Positions 22,941 to 29,654 of a stretch of 32,467 nucleotides of DNA are shown here, one piece after another. The stretch is from Candidatus Woesearchaeota archaeon (GTDB lineage Archaea; Nanobdellota; Nanobdellia; Woesearchaeales; DSVV01): positions 1 to 32,467 of the forward strand of contig JAGVYW010000007.1 in the NCBI GenBank assembly GCA_018303075.1, read 5' to 3'. The position numbers and the translations under genes were made by a program. Numbering within the stretch: the first letter of the stretch is position 1; each line of letters opens with the position of its first letter. The notes below the pieces were generated by a model. It was not told the DNA's origin. It saw only the letters and a program-made list of their open reading frames with translations, and did no database searches.

Positions 22941-23708
22941 CTATTTTTTGTTTTTTACTTCTTCTGATGCGACATTCCATAAATGTTCAAAATGATTTTG
23001 GTACGTTTCGGCAATGGTTTTATTTTTTATCATAACAGCCATGACAGGAGTTCCCCATGTAACGATAACCACTTTATTGCCATATACAAAAGTATTAGTG
23101 GGATTAAATTGTTTCTCTTCTAAAAATCTATAATGTGTAGTAGGAGCTAGTTTTTTCTCGAATAAAAAAACATTTAGTTTCTTTAAGGTTATAACCCTCT
23201 CTTTAATATTGTTATTGCGAATATCCCGAAAATATTGTTTCATAAATATTGGAAGTGCCTCTTGATATTTTTGATCATCAATCCCTGTTATTAGCACTTC
23301 TTTTTTTGTTTTAATAATGTCTTTAAGGAAATATTTTAATCCCTCATTTCCTTTAAAGACTTCTACAAAAGTATCTTCTTTAGACATTTTAGTCATAGCT
23401 TCTAATTCAGGTAGAATAGAATCTACTGCTTGCTCTTGTACTTCCAACACTCTTTTTTGATCTTCAAGATAGTGTTTAATTTTACTAGGAGTGGTGGCTT
23501 GAAAATACTTCTTAGCTCCCCTGTATACATGAGTAACCAAGCCCTTGTCCATCAGTTGCTCAAGCTTATCATAAACGTGTACTCTATAGATCCCAGTTTT
23601 TTTGCCAATGTCATATGCCGTACTTAGACCTGTTTTGAGTAAATTGATGTATATTTTGATCTCATTCTCGGTTAAACCTATTTTTCGTAATATATCTGTG
23701 TCCATCAT
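22941..23708 (-). CDS. TrmB-family transcriptional regulator
   Basis: 255 residues. The N-terminal winged helix is typical of TrmB (LRKIGLTENEIKIYINLLKT, AYDIGKKTGIYRVHVYDKLE, LMDKGLV, about 6-70). A coiled linker (~80-105) and a C-terminal PLD-like effector region (~115-250) follow. No sugar-binding signature is recognisable. Minus-strand TATA at about 23727-23736 gives a leaderless start. It is divergent from the radical SAM/aldolase cassette and probably controls it through the palindrome at 23737-23761. Confidence 0.88.
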   Translation of the reverse strand: MMDTDILRKIGLTENEIKIYINLLKTGLSTAYDIGKKTGIYRVHVYDKLEQLMDKGLVTHVYRGAKKYFQATTPSKIKHYLEDQKRVLEVQEQAVDSILPELEAMTKMSKEDTFVEVFKGNEGLKYFLKDIIKTKKEVLITGIDDQKYQEALPIFMKQYFRDIRNNNIKERVITLKKLNVFLFEKKLAPTTHYRFLEEKQFNPTNTFVYGNKVVIVTWGTPVMAVMIKNKTIAETYQNHFEHLWNVASEEVKNKK

Positions 23709-23736
23709 AGTATGAAGGTAGTGGTTTTATTTAAAC

Positions 23737-23761
23737 TTTTCGTACCAGATTAGTACGACAA
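23737..23761. promoter_or_regulatory. Palindromic operator between TrmB and the cassette
   Basis: CGTAC (23741-23745) and GTACG (23753-23757) are separated by 7 bases, and the arms extend to 9 bases with one mismatch. It lies between the TrmB TATA box (~23732) and the cassette's TATA-like TTAATATAG (23765-23773), where bound protein would affect both. Confidence 0.55.
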
Positions 23762-23821
23762 GGATTAATATAGTTTCTAGGTTACTACTTTTGTAGAATA
23801 AATCAACAAAGAGTTGGCAAA

Positions 23822-24802
23822 ATGGACAATAATAATGTTGCTTACAAAATAAAATCAGCACTTAATCAGAATGGAGAGCAAACAAATAGATTAATGCTTG
23901 TCTTAAGGACTCCTCCATGTGAGTACAAGCAATGTATTATGTGTGGTTTTGATAATAATGCTGGCGAAAATGTTAGATTACAAAATATTCAGAGACAGTA
24001 TCAAAATGGCATTACAGAAGAAAATTTCTCAGATATAAAAAGAATAGATTTCCCAACAGCAGGCTCATTTTATAATGATAGAGAATTATCTATAGAATCA
24101 AGAAATTACTTGTTCTTTGAAGTAAGCAAACTTCCAGTTGATACAGTTATGGTCGAAACTAGAATTGATTATCTTACTGAAGAAAAGGTCAAAGAATCAA
24201 AAAGATATCTTAGAAAAGATCAGATAATTGAATTAGCAGTCGGACTTGAAAGTGTGGATGATATAATAAGGAACAAAGTATTGCGCAAGGGTCTTAAAAA
24301 AAAAGGTTTTGAACATTTTGCAGATATTTGTAATAATACTAACTCGCAACTTTTGGCTTATATCTTGATTAAATCTCCTACTTTATCAGAAGCTGAAGCA
24401 GTAGAAGATGCAGTTCGAACAGCAGATTATGTTTACAGAATTGCCAATGAGAGAGGTATAAAGGCAAGAGTTGCATTTAAGCCAATGTTTATTCCTGAAG
24501 GAACTGAGCTTGAAGAACAATATCTTAGTGGAGAATATAAATTACCAAAGTTATGGACTACAGTTGAAATTGTAAAGAGAACAACTAAATTGGCAAGCTA
24601 TCAACCAAATTCAATCTTTGTTGGTATGTTTGATGAAGACTTGTCAGGAGATAGATTCTCAAGTAATTGTTATAAATGTAATTCAGAGGTAGTTGATGCT
24701 CTAAAGATATTCAATGGAACTCAAGACTTGTCTGAATTAGAAAGACTAAGTTGTGAATGTAAAACAGAATGGGAACAAGAAGTAAGAGGTGAATCAAAAT
24801 GA
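23822..24802 (+). CDS. Radical SAM protein (RaSEA/Elp3-like core), cassette gene 1
   Basis: 326 residues. The cluster ligands are Cys33, Cys38 and Cys41 in TPPCEYKQCIMCGF, a C-x4-C-x2-C spacing reminiscent of the RaSEA (archaeosine)/Elp3 group rather than the classical CxxxCxxC. AVGLESVDD and AYILIKSPTLSEAEA also fit that group. A C-terminal set CYKC (283-286) and CECK (311-313) could bind metal. It overlaps gene 2 by 4 bases. No other archaeosine gene is nearby, so a role in a small-molecule pathway with the next three genes is as likely. Confidence 0.85.
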   Translation: MDNNNVAYKIKSALNQNGEQTNRLMLVLRTPPCEYKQCIMCGFDNNAGENVRLQNIQRQYQNGITEENFSDIKRIDFPTAGSFYNDRELSIESRNYLFFEVSKLPVDTVMVETRIDYLTEEKVKESKRYLRKDQIIELAVGLESVDDIIRNKVLRKGLKKKGFEHFADICNNTNSQLLAYILIKSPTLSEAEAVEDAVRTADYVYRIANERGIKARVAFKPMFIPEGTELEEQYLSGEYKLPKLWTTVEIVKRTTKLASYQPNSIFVGMFDEDLSGDRFSSNCYKCNSEVVDALKIFNGTQDLSELERLSCECKTEWEQEVRGESK

Positions 24803-25275
24803 AGGAATACATAGATGCTTCTATATTCTTAGGAATGCATAGCACTGATGAAAAAACAAGAATCGCCTGTAAAAATTACTTTGTTACTAGATTGAATGAT
24901 CAGGTTGGAATGAGTCTAGAGCAAGTAGGAAAATGTGACGATGTAATTTGGCAATATTCCAGACAAGAACAAGATGCCTACTATCCATTTATGGATAATC
25001 TTCATACTATAATGAATATACTGAGATTAGCCTATGATGAAAAAGATATCCAAGAAGCAACAACTAATCCAGACTTACTGGATTTAAGCATAGCAGATAG
25101 ATTGACTGCTGGAATGGCAATTGCACGAGGAACTGAATTGTATTCACTGAATCAAAAATTAGTTGGCAAAGAGTATGTTCGTTCTCCAGAAGCTAGTAAA
25201 GAACTTTCTTTTCCGCTGGACTTGGAAGATTTGTATCAACAATCTTTAGAGGTGAGAATATGTACTCAGGAATAA
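24799..25275 (+). CDS. PIN-like domain protein (possibly DUF6190), cassette gene 2
   Basis: 158 residues. The start YIDASIFLG resembles the first strand and Asp of PIN domains; Asp6, Glu41 (MSLEQVG) and Asp100 (LSIADRLTAGMA) are placed like the PIN acidic triad, and the late LYSLNQKLVG resembles the fourth motif with Asn. A nuclease activity is possible, but in this setting it could equally be an accessory protein. I recall a similar family (DUF6190) from actinobacteria; that needs a search. It overlaps both neighbours (4 and 16 bases). No antitoxin-like partner is visible. Confidence 0.65.
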   Translation: MKEYIDASIFLGMHSTDEKTRIACKNYFVTRLNDQVGMSLEQVGKCDDVIWQYSRQEQDAYYPFMDNLHTIMNILRLAYDEKDIQEATTNPDLLDLSIADRLTAGMAIARGTELYSLNQKLVGKEYVRSPEASKELSFPLDLEDLYQQSLEVRICTQE

Positions 25276-26033
25276 TCCCTCCATTAGTAACTCCTGTAGA
25301 TTATAAAGGGAATGTTTGCGAACAGAGTGTAAAGAATCTTGTTGATTTTGTTAGACTATACTCTACTGCTTTAATTCCAACACTAAGTTCAGGAGAAGGT
25401 TGGGCTTTAAACGATAAGCAATGGGAAGATATGATTAGATTCACAATTAAACATTCTTCAGAATTGCCAGTTTTAGCAGGAGTAGAATACAAAACAACTG
25501 AAGAAGTTGTGAACAAAGCTAGAGAAGCACAAAGATTGGGTGTTGATGCTGTTGTAGTGACTACTCCATTTGAGAAAGATATTACTCAAGATGAGATTTA
25601 TCAACACTTTCAACAAATCAAAGAAGTTGGTGTTCCTGTATTTATCTACAATGAAGAAGCAATCTCAAAAAATTCAATAGAATATGAAACAATTGAAAGA
25701 ATTTGTAGATTGGGAAATGTTGTAGGAATTAAAGAAGCTAGTGGCTCTGCTGATTTCACAAGAAGATTAGTTGATTCTAAGTTATGTGTTCCAGTATTCC
25801 AAGGATGGGAACATCTTTGTTATCAGTCTAAAGGAGTAGATGGATATATTGTACCATTAGCTAATTTAGAGCCAAAAGTATGTTCAGAGATGTTAAGAGA
25901 TCCTACTGCTGAAAAGCAGATTGGAATTGATTCTCTTTGTAAGAAGTACAACATTCTAGGAGAAGACTGGTATGTTTTCTTGAAAAAGGAACTACAACAA
26001 AGAGGAATAATAACAACCGAGAGAGTGATTTAA
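25260..26033 (+). CDS. DHDPS/N-acetylneuraminate-lyase family aldolase, cassette gene 3
   Basis: 257 residues, shorter than the usual ~290. TIM-barrel class I aldolase using a Schiff-base Lys. Lys158 in VVGIKEASG and Tyr130 in VFIYNEEAIS match the catalytic pair, and TLSSGEGWAL corresponds to the GTTGE carboxylate-binding loop. The Arg that binds the second substrate in true DHDPS (YNVPxRT) is absent: the position reads NEEAIS. So it likely condenses or cleaves pyruvate or a similar keto acid with a non-lysine substrate. Overlaps gene 2 and abuts gene 4. Confidence 0.88.
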   Translation: MYSGIIPPLVTPVDYKGNVCEQSVKNLVDFVRLYSTALIPTLSSGEGWALNDKQWEDMIRFTIKHSSELPVLAGVEYKTTEEVVNKAREAQRLGVDAVVVTTPFEKDITQDEIYQHFQQIKEVGVPVFIYNEEAISKNSIEYETIERICRLGNVVGIKEASGSADFTRRLVDSKLCVPVFQGWEHLCYQSKGVDGYIVPLANLEPKVCSEMLRDPTAEKQIGIDSLCKKYNILGEDWYVFLKKELQQRGIITTERVI

Positions 26034-27071
26034 ATGATATTTGATATGCTTAAGCAGAATAATTGTAATGAATTACATATCAGATATGATATAGACTCTG
26101 GTTGTACGTTTGTTGTTGCTCTTAATACAATCTATCATAATAAAGGTAATGGCGGAACTCGAATGAAGAACTACTCTTCAGTGGGCGAAGGAATAGAAGA
26201 TGCTTTAAAATTAGCAAATGCTATGACCAAAAAGTGTGTTGTAATTGGTGAAGAAGACAATGGAGGTTATAGTGGAGCAAAGGGAGTTATTATTGGAGAT
26301 CCTGCAATACAAAAAACTCCTAAAATGCTTAGAAATTATGGTAGATTTGTTCAATCTCTTAATGGTAGATTTCAAACTGGTTGTGATATGAATATATCTC
26401 CTAGTGATTTGGAGTATATGGCAGAAAGAACTCAATATGTTGATGGACTTCCATCTACTGGTTTGGGTGATGGTGGAGCTGCTACTGCATATGGCATAAT
26501 TGTTGCTATGAAAATACTTTGTGAACAAAGGTATGGAACTGATAGATTGAAAGATAGATTAATTGCTGTTCAGGGAGTTGGAAGTGTTGGGTCAGCTTTA
26601 ATTAGAAGATTATCTGATGAAGGGGCAGAAATTATTGTAACTGATGTTGATTCTGATAGATTAAAATCTGTTGCTGATAGATATAATGTAGAAGTTGTAA
26701 GTTCTGAAAAAATTTATTCAGTAAAATGCGATATCTTTTCACCTAATGCCTGCGGAGATATTTTGACAGCAGAAAATATTGAAAAATTGAATTGTGATAT
26801 TGTTATTGGTGCAGCTAATAATCCTCTTGCTGAAGGTTTACGTTCTGTCAGTCAAATGCAAAAGAGAGGAATTGTTTTTGCACCAGATTATGTTGTAAAC
26901 ATCGGTGCACAAGTTTTAGCTATCTGCGAAGTAGAAGGCAAAAGCTTTGATTATGCTAATAATAAAATTAAGGGTATTATTCAGAGGAGACTTCAACAAA
27001 TTAGTTTACAAAATGAAACAATGTATGAAGCTGCTGAAAAAATAGTGCATCAAGAAATGTTAAGAAACTGA
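26034..27071 (+). CDS. Leucine/Glu/Val-dehydrogenase-like amino acid dehydrogenase, cassette gene 4
   Basis: 345 residues. NAD(P)-dependent reductive amination of a 2-oxo acid. GGTRMKNYSS, the catalytic-region MTKKCVV, GGYSGAKGVIIGDP and the catalytic Asp in TGCDMNIS correspond to LeuDH motifs. The Lys-containing glycine loop has a small insertion relative to GGGKAV, suggesting altered substrate. The Rossmann motif is GVGSVGS. The ATG directly follows the stop of gene 3, so the pair is translationally coupled. Product is probably an unusual amino acid. Confidence 0.88.
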   Translation: MIFDMLKQNNCNELHIRYDIDSGCTFVVALNTIYHNKGNGGTRMKNYSSVGEGIEDALKLANAMTKKCVVIGEEDNGGYSGAKGVIIGDPAIQKTPKMLRNYGRFVQSLNGRFQTGCDMNISPSDLEYMAERTQYVDGLPSTGLGDGGAATAYGIIVAMKILCEQRYGTDRLKDRLIAVQGVGSVGSALIRRLSDEGAEIIVTDVDSDRLKSVADRYNVEVVSSEKIYSVKCDIFSPNACGDILTAENIEKLNCDIVIGAANNPLAEGLRSVSQMQKRGIVFAPDYVVNIGAQVLAICEVEGKSFDYANNKIKGIIQRRLQQISLQNETMYEAAEKIVHQEMLRN

Positions 27072-27096: not shown

Positions 27097-28275
27097 TTAC
27101 AGGAATTCAATCTCCACTTCAAAACCATCTTGTGTTGGATATTCCTCGACAAGCGCTGGAATAAGATTACTGTTGTATTTTTTTATTTTATCTGCATATT
27201 GTTTTGCACTGCTTCTTGGAATGATTAAACGGCATTTGTTAATATCAACTATTATCTCTTTTTCAGTGAGTGTCAAAAATTCTAGCAGCTCTTTGCGAAC
27301 AATTATCAGCTTCTCTAAAAGATAATTTCTGTCAGCATTTTTTAATTTCTCTTTATAGTTGAATCCTGGTGCAAGCTCTTTGAGATAAATGCAGCATCGC
27401 AGCAGAGTTCCATCTTCAGTTCTTTCGTCAAATGGAAGTGCAACATTTTTTGCCCGTATCTGTAATCTTTTCCTGATTTGTACACTATCTTTTAATTTTG
27501 CAGTGCAAAAATGAGCAGCTAATCCTTTCTGTCTGGTATATTCAAGTATCTTCATTGCCATCTCTTTGCTTCCTTTTACACCATAACTAATATTATCTTT
27601 TGTTTTAAATCCTTTTAATGGCAATGTATAATGTTTTGTTCCTGTATCTGAGAGTTCAAGCTCATTAAGATTAATGAATGATACTTTATCTGCGATATAG
27701 TCTATCAGTTTCATTGTCTTTTTTTCATAACCAGGAATTGCAGGGATTTCTATTCCAATATTCCAGTTAAACTGTTTTGCAATTTCAATCCTATTCCATA
27801 GAGAATCATCATCCAAATCTGGGTGAAATCGTATCTCATCAAGTCCTGTATTATATAATTGCTGTAATTTTTCTTTTGATACAAGTTTTAATGGAGTATA
27901 TAAGTGGATATGAAATCTTTTTCCAAACTTATCTTTTAATAATTTTATATAATTGCAGCATCTGTCTAGATTCGTCAGTGGATCTCCGCCAGTAATTCCA
28001 GCGCCTTTTGCCTGTGTTAATTCTGCTTCTTTTATTAATTCTATAGGATTGTTTGGATCTTCTAGTTTCCATTCATTAGCATAGACAACATCATTGCCGA
28101 ACTTCTGTTCTCCAACAGGGCAATAAAAACATCTTTGCGGGCATAATCCTGTAATAAATAACACTAATTTTCTTCCTTGCACGCAATATGCGCAGCCTTT
28201 TGCAATATTTCCAGTACACCATGAATGCCATGGGGTTTTGTTTATCTTCAGTATTTTCGTATTCATTTTGTTCAT
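27097..28275 (-). CDS. Radical SAM protein with extra N-terminal Cys motif (COG2108-like)
   Basis: 392 residues from the ATG at 28275, 30 bases after a TATA-like ATTTAAATTT; a TTG at 28296 is a weaker start. Cys45, Cys49 and Cys52 (CPQRCFYC) bind the radical SAM cluster. Upstream Cys20, Cys28 and Cys31 (WCTGNIAKGCAYC) form a second set. This arrangement and GITGGDPL match uncharacterised archaeal proteins related to pyruvate formate-lyase activating enzyme. The C-terminal ~100 residues are a separate alpha/beta region. Convergent with the cassette; function unknown. Confidence 0.83.
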   Translation of the reverse strand: MNKMNTKILKINKTPWHSWCTGNIAKGCAYCVQGRKLVLFITGLCPQRCFYCPVGEQKFGNDVVYANEWKLEDPNNPIELIKEAELTQAKGAGITGGDPLTNLDRCCNYIKLLKDKFGKRFHIHLYTPLKLVSKEKLQQLYNTGLDEIRFHPDLDDDSLWNRIEIAKQFNWNIGIEIPAIPGYEKKTMKLIDYIADKVSFINLNELELSDTGTKHYTLPLKGFKTKDNISYGVKGSKEMAMKILEYTRQKGLAAHFCTAKLKDSVQIRKRLQIRAKNVALPFDERTEDGTLLRCCIYLKELAPGFNYKEKLKNADRNYLLEKLIIVRKELLEFLTLTEKEIIVDINKCRLIIPRSSAKQYADKIKKYNSNLIPALVEEYPTQDGFEVEIEFL

Positions 28276-28300
28276 ACAGAAAATACTATTTATCAAGTAG

Positions 28301-28800: not shown

Positions 28801-29115
28801 TCAAATATACCAAAAGTCGTTTTTTAAAATATCGAAATCAGAATCTTCTAGATTTTCACATTCACAACTACAATCAGATTCAGGAGTGCCTTTTGGTTTT
28901 TTACATACATAAGATTCATTTGTTCCGCATTTTACGTCTTTGTAGTTGGATTCTGGATTAGAACATAGTTCATATTCTTCGTTGCATCCAACACTAGCCA
29001 ATGTAATTCCAACTGCAACAATAGCATTCCCAATATATTTCACAGTTGCAGACTTAACTCTATCAATCAATGAATTTTCATTAACTAATCTTACATATAG
29101 TTTTTTTTCTAACAT
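28801..29115 (-). CDS. Small secreted Cys-rich protein, MLEKK family (member 1)
   Basis: 104 residues from the ATG after AAAGGTGGGAAT. A ~27-residue polar start (MLEKKLYVRLVNENSLIDRV, KSATVKY) leads into a hydrophobic stretch and a lipobox-like SVGC. The mature part has about 8 Cys, including CSCEC near the end. Closely similar at the N-terminus to the genes ending at 29494 and 29996, so they are tandem paralogues. Likely exported and perhaps lipid-anchored. Mature function unknown. Confidence 0.78.
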   Translation of the reverse strand: MLEKKLYVRLVNENSLIDRVKSATVKYIGNAIVAVGITLASVGCNEEYELCSNPESNYKDVKCGTNESYVCKKPKGTPESDCSCECENLEDSDFDILKNDFWYI

Positions 29116-29152
29116 ATTCCCACCTTTGTTTATTTTTATTAATCTGATTAAT

Positions 29153-29494
29153 TTACCATTCCTTACCTGGTTCATCAGGAGTAGGATTATCTGACACACA
29201 ATGATATCCAGTTTTAGTTTCATCGTGTTTATTGGTATAAGTGTAAGACTCACAAGAATATCCTGGACTACATCCTGGTTCTGAATATCCTGTTGCTCTA
29301 TTTCCAACAGTGTGGGAACAACCTTCGCTAGATTCGCTTCCACCTCCACTTCCACATCCAGAATAAGATGCGCTTCCTAAAACAATTCCAACAGCAACTA
29401 CAGTATTTCTGGCATATTTCACAGTTGCAGACTTAACTCTATCAATCAATGAATTCTCATTTGCTAATTTTATATCTAATTTTTTTTCCAACAT
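29153..29494 (-). CDS. Small secreted Gly/Cys-rich protein, MLEKK family (member 2)
   Basis: 113 residues from the ATG at 29494 (SD GGGTGAG). N-terminal segment nearly identical to member 3: MLEKKLDIKLANENSLIDRV. The hydrophobic stretch ends at SGCGSGGG, and the mature chain has the Cys pairs GCSHTVG and GCSPGYSCES, ending in a polar, acidic tail. The first part of the gene and its upstream region (29433-29513) is an 81-base exact copy of 29935-30015, so the duplication is recent. Confidence 0.8.
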   Translation of the reverse strand: MLEKKLDIKLANENSLIDRVKSATVKYARNTVVAVGIVLGSASYSGCGSGGGSESSEGCSHTVGNRATGYSEPGCSPGYSCESYTYTNKHDETKTGYHCVSDNPTPDEPGKEW

Positions 29495-29498
29495 ATTC

Positions 29499-29654
29499 TC
29501 ACCCAAATTTATTCAAAAAAAATGGGTTTAATACCCCGCAGCTCTGCTGCGACCCATTTTTAAGAGTAAAAATCCCTTTTTTGTTATTGAATGCCCCGCA
29601 GCTTAGCAGACTCAAAGCTGTTAGAGCTGTAGCTATGCATGTTTTTATTTTCAT
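29499..29654 (-). CDS. 51-residue chimeric ORF: duplicated signal peptide + repeat-encoded tail
   Basis: The first ~16 codons (MKIKTCIATALTALSL) duplicate the start of the gene at 30017-30694, with SD TAGGTAG before the ATG. The rest, starting near LSCGAFNNKK, is read through palindromic repeat copy C and stops just before the next gene's ATG. The junction creates a LLSCG sequence resembling a lipobox. It is best seen as the remnant of a duplicated exported-protein gene whose body was replaced by the repeat. It may still be translated. Confidence 0.6.
   Translation of the reverse strand: MKIKTCIATALTALSLLSCGAFNNKKGIFTLKNGSQQSCGVLNPFFLNKFG
29515..29604 (+). repeat. Composite palindromic repeat, copy C
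   Basis: Module 1 is complete: AAAAATGGGT and ACCCATTTTT arms around CCGCAGC-TCT-GCTGCG. The linker AAGA leads into module 2 (GTAAAAATCCC...CCCCGCAGCTT), which stops before its distal arm, exactly where the duplicated exported-protein sequence begins (29605). It is nearly identical to copy B. Confidence 0.85.

Follow-up and report, generated by a model that had tools for sequence, protein, structure and literature searches.

A 32,467-nucleotide stretch of an archaeal genome (hereafter the window; contig C30 of G000, a genome of 1.24 Mb that is 95% complete and has Candidatus Woesearchaeota as its close relatives in the genome collection) carries a four-gene operon in which the known RohQ-RohR pair of azomycin biosynthesis is joined to a new front end. 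Azomycin is a 2-nitroimidazole antibiotic with 2-aminoimidazole as its core, and we consider it probable, at roughly 0.6, that this operon is an oxygen-independent archaeal version of the arginine to 2-aminoimidazole half of azomycin biosynthesis. The four genes lie on the forward strand and encode, in order, a radical S-adenosylmethionine (SAM) protein related to RaSEA (23822..24802), a RohQ-type cyclodehydratase of the DUF6190 family with a PIN-like fold (24799..25275), a RohR-type class I retro-aldolase of the dihydrodipicolinate synthase (DHDPS) superfamily (25260..26033), and an NAD(P)-dependent amino acid dehydrogenase resembling leucine and tryptophan dehydrogenases (26034..27071). A TrmB-family regulator (22941..23708, reverse strand; PF01978, 1.4e-16) is divergent from them. 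The coordinates bear out the junctions given in an original prediction made from the sequence of this stretch, with a 4-nt overlap between the radical SAM and DUF6190 genes, a 16-nt overlap between the DUF6190 and aldolase genes, and a 0-nt gap between the aldolase and dehydrogenase genes.

In the bacterial route, arginine is first turned into 4-hydroxy-2-ketoarginine by RohP; cleavage by RohR then yields guanidinoacetaldehyde and pyruvate, and RohQ cyclizes the aldehyde. Published work has RohP, RohR, and RohQ acting in successive steps that lead from arginine to 2-aminoimidazole, with RohS making azomycin (PMC10724926); the rohPQRST genes are required for azomycin production in Pseudomonas sp. 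DF41 (PMC12713392).

The DUF6190 protein of the window is a homolog of the azomycin cyclodehydratase RohQ by sequence, fold, and invariant residues. It matches PF19689 at 1e-57 and the solved RohQ structure (PDB 9c5w) at 1.6e-26, with about 36% identity to RohQ (PDB 9c5w, 9oq8), and it retains all 21 residues that are invariant over 40 homologs. Its AlphaFold2 model, with a predicted local distance difference test score (pLDDT) of 95, superposes on the RohQ-imidazole structure (9c5w) with a template modeling (TM) score of 0.88. It differs from RohQ in forming an archaeal clade of its own (99% support) and in lacking the partner RohP. In RohQ, a PIN-fold protein has become an enzyme; after RohQ itself, VapC PIN domains are the next fold matches of the model, at a TM score of about 0.6. 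The earlier description of this gene as PIN-like and free of a toxin-antitoxin context was correct on both counts and is now refined to a RohQ homolog. A role as a VapC-type toxin was rejected because the nearest structures are RohQ and because, although VapC toxins share the PIN fold, the adjacent antitoxin was not found in the archaeal operon.

When 84,980 species genomes were scanned with the DUF6190 alignment, 55 rohQ loci were recovered on genome contigs, in Woesearchaeota, Nostocales, many actinobacteria, gammaproteobacteria including Pseudomonas syringae, and one Peregrinibacterium. Searches for DUF6190 in plasmids, in viral contigs, and in the literature gave no match, and within the host phylum the family occurs in 4 of 371 genomes, the distribution of the cluster among archaea being horizontally patchy. 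At the Candidatus Peregrinibacteria locus (L036, 8001-8486), a rohQ homolog stands alone about 2.3 kb downstream of a TrmB-like gene; the rohQ product deviates at R55, D59, and A60, which are near-invariant elsewhere.

The aldolase, with its putative Schiff-base lysine at K158, groups by sequence with RohR and apart from true DHDPS. It carries the RohR signature (GEGW, YNExAxS, GxE, DWY, and K242) and, as the original prediction had noticed, lacks the DHDPS arginine, with YNEEAIS in place of YNxPxRT. In the tree it is nested inside actinobacterial RohR (support 0.91-0.93; the closest is 55.6% identical) and is well separated from true DHDPS-family paralogs of the same bacterial genomes, to which it is 17-28% identical; 5 leaves labeled as paralogs inside the RohR clade are themselves roh-type copies. 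It is also the sole DHDPS-family gene in the 4 archaeal genomes searched. An identity as the DHDPS of lysine biosynthesis was rejected on the grouping with RohR and the absent motif arginine.

Comparison of the loci shows what has been exchanged around this pair. All 49 bacterial loci in which a rohR-type gene stands beside rohQ contain a RohP-like pyridoxal phosphate (PLP) enzyme of the 6c3a/MppP family, 47 of the 49 contain the heme-oxygenase-like RohS, and most contain a Rieske protein. The archaeal rohQ-rohR loci have the radical SAM protein and the dehydrogenase instead of RohP and RohS, and the 2 locus types never overlap. No RohP was found beside the archaeal operon or in G000, G099, G126, and G252, and G001 gave nothing closer than a generic match at 23%. 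RohS was found neither in the archaeal loci nor in these 5 genomes, in a genome search run without a positive control. Like the rohPQRST cluster of Streptomyces eurocidicus and Pseudomonas, the archaeal operon keeps rohQ and rohR adjacent and in the same order and has a candidate arginine-oxidizing enzyme in first position, where the radical SAM gene takes the place of rohP. Unlike that cluster, it lacks RohP, the N-oxygenase RohS, and RohT/Rieske, contains the radical SAM and leucine dehydrogenase-like enzymes, stands beside a TrmB regulator in an archaeal host, and is expected to give no nitro product.

Among the bacterial loci, 2 divergent roh-type loci per genome were seen in Streptomyces olivoreticuli (L016/L047), S. 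albireticuli (L032/L050), and S. eurocidicus (L025/L056), the last pair both in ATCC 27428, the original azomycin strain. In Nostoc and Desmonostoc (L011, L012, L013), the neighbors of RohQ are a fusion of RohS with a Rieske protein and a PRMT5-like methyltransferase. The locus has no RohP or RohR, and no RohP-like gene above generic similarity was found in the genomes of L011 and L012; the azomycin route may exist here in a further variant.

The four-gene operon is no artifact: it is conserved, and purifying selection acts on it. The complete arrangement of trmB, radical SAM, DUF6190, aldolase, and dehydrogenase genes recurs in 2 Woesearchaeota genomes from other families of the order (G099 and G126) at 71-89% identity, and a third genome, from the same genus as the window genome (G001), has the operon without the DUF6190 gene. 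Orthologs of the adjoining TrmB are 94% identical in G001, 86% in G099, and 85% in G126, and those of the radical SAM protein are 80-86% identical in the 3 genomes. The rate of nonsynonymous substitution (dN) lies far below that of synonymous substitution (dS) for every operon gene, with dN/dS well below 1. This recurrence in G001, G099, and G126, combined with low dN/dS and a single operator site per genome, places the operon beyond chance. The original prediction was right to read the four genes as a single metabolic unit, which proves to be conserved and to have a regulator of its own. Synonymous sites of the regulator are saturated between the window and G126, whereas dS of the structural genes is about 0.5-1.0, as if transfer between families had been more recent for the structural genes than for the regulator.

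G001 represents a clean loss of rohQ. Synteny around the lost gene is preserved, and at the junction the first 2 DUF6190 codons (ATGAAG) are fused straight to the aldolase start codon (ATGTATTCAGG). In the resulting locus (L099, G001:C4, 7056-8821), the radical SAM, aldolase, and dehydrogenase genes remain under the same operator, and translation of the aldolase now begins at what was the rohQ start codon.

The palindromic operator across which TrmB was predicted to face the operon was confirmed at 23740-23758 (TCGTACCAGATTAGTACGA; TCGTAC-N7-GTACGA), and it is kept in the window, G001, G099, G126, and G252. Each of these 5 genomes (G000 for the window) contains exactly one such palindromic site, and a control pattern gave zero matches in them; the regulator is therefore dedicated to the operon locus. 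Alignment of the divergent intergenic regions also shows a TATA-like block just upstream of the operator (23728..23735, forward strand; TATTTAAA) that is conserved in all 4 archaeal loci and probably serves as the promoter. In G252, a close TrmB relative (396 bits) lies upstream of a solo rohQ (L008/L010), which is found 3' of 3 unknown small genes and is adjoined by this regulator and the same operator, with no radical SAM, aldolase, or dehydrogenase gene at the locus.

The radical SAM protein has the CX4CX2C motif (C33-x4-C38-x2-C41) and 4 additional cysteines (283/286/311/313) that had been reported from the sequence; the refinement is that these C-terminal cysteines, in a CX2C...CXC arrangement, and an ExR motif are common to the wider RaSEA-like family in a family alignment. 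It scores 181 bits against the RaSEA profile TIGR01210, under the cut-off of 212.15, and weakly matches queuine lyase (6p78). It shares with RaSEA and queuine lyase the radical SAM core and the TIGR01210-type C-terminal cysteines, and it differs from RaSEA in falling under the family cut-off and in its CX4CX2C motif, as opposed to the CX8CX2C of several archaeal RaSEA-like proteins. RaSEA acts on preQ0-Lys, a lysine-derived N-alkyl amidine (PMC11298593), and this amino-acid-linked amidine is chemically close to the N-alkyl guanidine of arginine. The window host is without archaeosine genes. Because tRNA-guanine transglycosylase (TGT; PF01702) was not found in G000, G001, or G099 (it is present in G126), the radical SAM protein is not an archaeosine enzyme in those 3 genomes, and an archaeosine role was rejected for the window genome.

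The dehydrogenase belongs to the Glu/Leu/Phe/Val dehydrogenase family (PF00208/PF02812), with structure matches to leucine and tryptophan dehydrogenases, and its nearest NCBIfam family is the tryptophan dehydrogenase ScyB, far under the family cut-off (213 bits against 600). It shares with both the fold and the catalytic Lys/Lys/Asp/Asn of leucine dehydrogenase, kept here as K67, K83, D118, and N263. The changed glycine loop of the original prediction was confirmed: the GGGK of leucine dehydrogenase is replaced, before the catalytic lysine, by an acidic 4-amino-acid insertion and SGAK. Positions L40/A113/V291/V294, together with T134, are what we take to be the side-chain specificity pocket of leucine dehydrogenase, and here the substitutions are L40 to N39, A113 to G116, T134 to D137, V291 to Q293, and V294 to A296. 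Leucine dehydrogenase has a hydrophobic pocket, whereas that of the archaeal enzyme is polar, and a true leucine dehydrogenase identity was rejected on this ground. A polar pocket with an Asp would suit a guanidino side chain, which is supportive of such a substrate without being proof.

Homology and gene exchange being shown, we infer from these families a route with a putative radical SAM reaction, a putative dehydrogenase substrate, and a putative end product. The RaSEA-like enzyme would oxidize the side chain of arginine, most simply by desaturation at C3-C4 or C4-C5, and the leucine dehydrogenase-like enzyme would oxidatively deaminate the product to a 2-oxo acid with NAD(P)+, so that the two would jointly do the job of the bacterial O2- and PLP-dependent oxidase RohP. 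The RohR-type aldolase would then form a Schiff base and release pyruvate and guanidinoacetaldehyde, the substrate being proposed from its family. In a variant of this step, it would act as a hydratase-aldolase, a chemistry that exists in the DHDPS superfamily (PMC8482765), hydrating and then cleaving a 3,4-ene; with the desaturation and deamination before it, the oxidation state of the RohP route would be reached without O2. Finally, the RohQ-type PIN-fold cyclodehydratase, as judged by its family and modeled fold, would close the ring to 2-aminoimidazole. The divergent TrmB would control this operon only, through the single operator beside the promoter. For lack of a RohS match in the genome, the end product would be 2-aminoimidazole or a derivative, not azomycin; candidate roles for 2-aminoimidazole are a signal, an inhibitor, or a waste product of arginine fermentation. 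The fuller proposal, that DPANN archaea, with no need for oxygen, turn arginine into 2-aminoimidazole or into a new metabolite derived from that compound, with a new radical SAM arginine desaturase/oxidase and a guanidino-amino-acid dehydrogenase replacing RohP under a dedicated TrmB switch, is more tentative, and we put it slightly below even odds.

Several points weigh against this route. G001 keeps the other 3 genes under the same operator without rohQ, which implies either ring closure without RohQ or another product. No downstream gene that would use 2-aminoimidazole is linked to the operon, and G099 does not share the pocket residue Q293. No close relative with a solved structure points to a function for the radical SAM protein, whose own model is of too low quality to be of use (pLDDT 52; the best Foldseek match is Elp3 at a TM score of 0.36). 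The related radical SAM subfamily in other archaea adjoins unrelated partners, and its chemistry may not be arginine oxidation. The activities assigned to the four archaeal enzymes are all predictions.

The alternative that survives best accepts the same chemistry and differs from the proposed biosynthesis in purpose. The operon could serve inducible anaerobic use of arginine, yielding pyruvate and NADH with 2-aminoimidazole as waste. A dedicated regulator of the TrmB family, whose members often sense substrates, acting through a single operator, would fit such a system, as would the lack of any tailoring or export gene conserved beside the operon in all hosts, and pyruvate and a reduced cofactor would presumably be useful to a reduced-genome archaeon. 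The guanidino nitrogen would be wasted, however, and the presence of RohQ in so few genomes of the phylum looks more like specialized metabolism, so that we regard this purpose as unlikely, though it is the strongest of the alternatives. Close behind it is a different role for the radical SAM protein, as a C-N bond lyase whose N-alkyl amidine or guanidine substrate would not be free arginine, with RohQ and RohR repurposed for a different heterocycle. Its closest named families, RaSEA and queuine lyase, point in this direction, as do the pairing of other archaeal subfamily members with QueC, PALP, carbamoyltransferase, and methyltransferase proteins and the loss of rohQ in G001. Against this, the RohQ and RohR residues invariant in azomycin clusters are retained, and a lyase acting on arginine would free guanidine, removing the atoms that RohQ needs; on balance the lyase role seems improbable.

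Less probable still is a synthetic direction: pyruvate would be joined to an aldehyde by the aldolase, and reductive amination of the resulting 4-hydroxy-2-oxo acid by the dehydrogenase would give a gamma-hydroxy amino acid, for example 4-hydroxyarginine, with the radical SAM protein and RohQ acting earlier or later. Leucine dehydrogenase-type enzymes run reductively in many settings, and the aldolase and dehydrogenase genes are contiguous and persist without RohQ in G001. In vitro, a DHDPS-superfamily hydratase-aldolase combined with aminating enzymes yields gamma-hydroxy amino acids (PMC8482765). The characterized direction of RohR and RohQ is nevertheless retro-aldol cleavage and cyclodehydration (PMC10724926), RohQ would consume the aldehyde that the aldolase needs, and no gene supplying guanidinoacetaldehyde is evident. 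The original prediction was sound in assigning the aldolase and dehydrogenase to 2-oxo and amino acids and in looking to actinobacteria, where related families occur, but its proposal that a 2-oxo acid is made and then aminated to an unusual amino acid is not the best one, as the RohQ and RohR families cleave an arginine-derived 2-oxo acid and close the 2-aminoimidazole ring (PMC10724926). Because the genes belong to these families, arginine breakdown to pyruvate and 2-aminoimidazole with a deaminating dehydrogenase is likelier. Archaeosine and ordinary amino acid metabolism, with the proteins as RaSEA, lysine DHDPS, and leucine dehydrogenase, has the best-match names in Pfam and NCBIfam in its favor and is scarcely credible given the missing TGT, the sub-threshold TIGR01210 score, and the polar dehydrogenase pocket; it is refuted for the window genome by the TGT absence and the RohR placement of the aldolase, as the prediction had expected.

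In the literature searched, the only organisms known to have the arginine-to-2-aminoimidazole module are oxygen-using bacteria, in which the first enzyme is O2-dependent. If the proposed route is correct, a natural-product step would have been reinvented for anaerobic life by a radical SAM protein and a dehydrogenase in place of that enzyme, the RaSEA-like family would gain a small-molecule reaction open to testing, and a concrete specialized metabolite could be named for Woesearchaeota, a group otherwise believed to have a minimal metabolism. Every proposed step is directly testable with 4 small proteins and arginine.

RaSEA-like radical SAM genes also occur in other archaeal settings. In L094 (G141) and L095 (G192), a divergent TrmB (38% identity) faces a RaSEA-like radical SAM gene (35%). 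Next come genes for a SPASM radical SAM protein and for a PRMT-like methyltransferase, the latter a distant relative of the methyltransferase that some roh clusters contain. In 6 further loci (L096 in G259, L097 in G023, L098 in G162, L100 in G176, L101 in G196, and L102 in G211), the partners are natural-product-like and include PALP enzymes, QueC, an ATP-grasp ligase, PaaK-like proteins, a NodU-type carbamoyltransferase, a fatty acid desaturase, and an aspartate-carbamoyltransferase fusion. These loci have the look of a DPANN mini-cluster class that has yet to be explored, and those combining TrmB with a RaSEA-like protein suggest a wider, unexplored class of archaeal specialized metabolism.

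Downstream of the operon and converging on it, the window holds a second, unrelated radical SAM gene (27097-28296, reverse strand; CX3CX2C, weakly HxsC/KamA-like). Its ortholog flanks the operon in G001, and it was rejected as a fifth operon member because it is convergent and is not beside the operon in G099 or G126. Rfam and tRNA scans of the window gave no match. Farther along (28801-29506, reverse strand), 2 overlapping small open reading frames share a near-identical N-terminal segment (MLEKKL...SLIDRVKSATVKY) and appear to be lipoprotein-like tandem paralogs.

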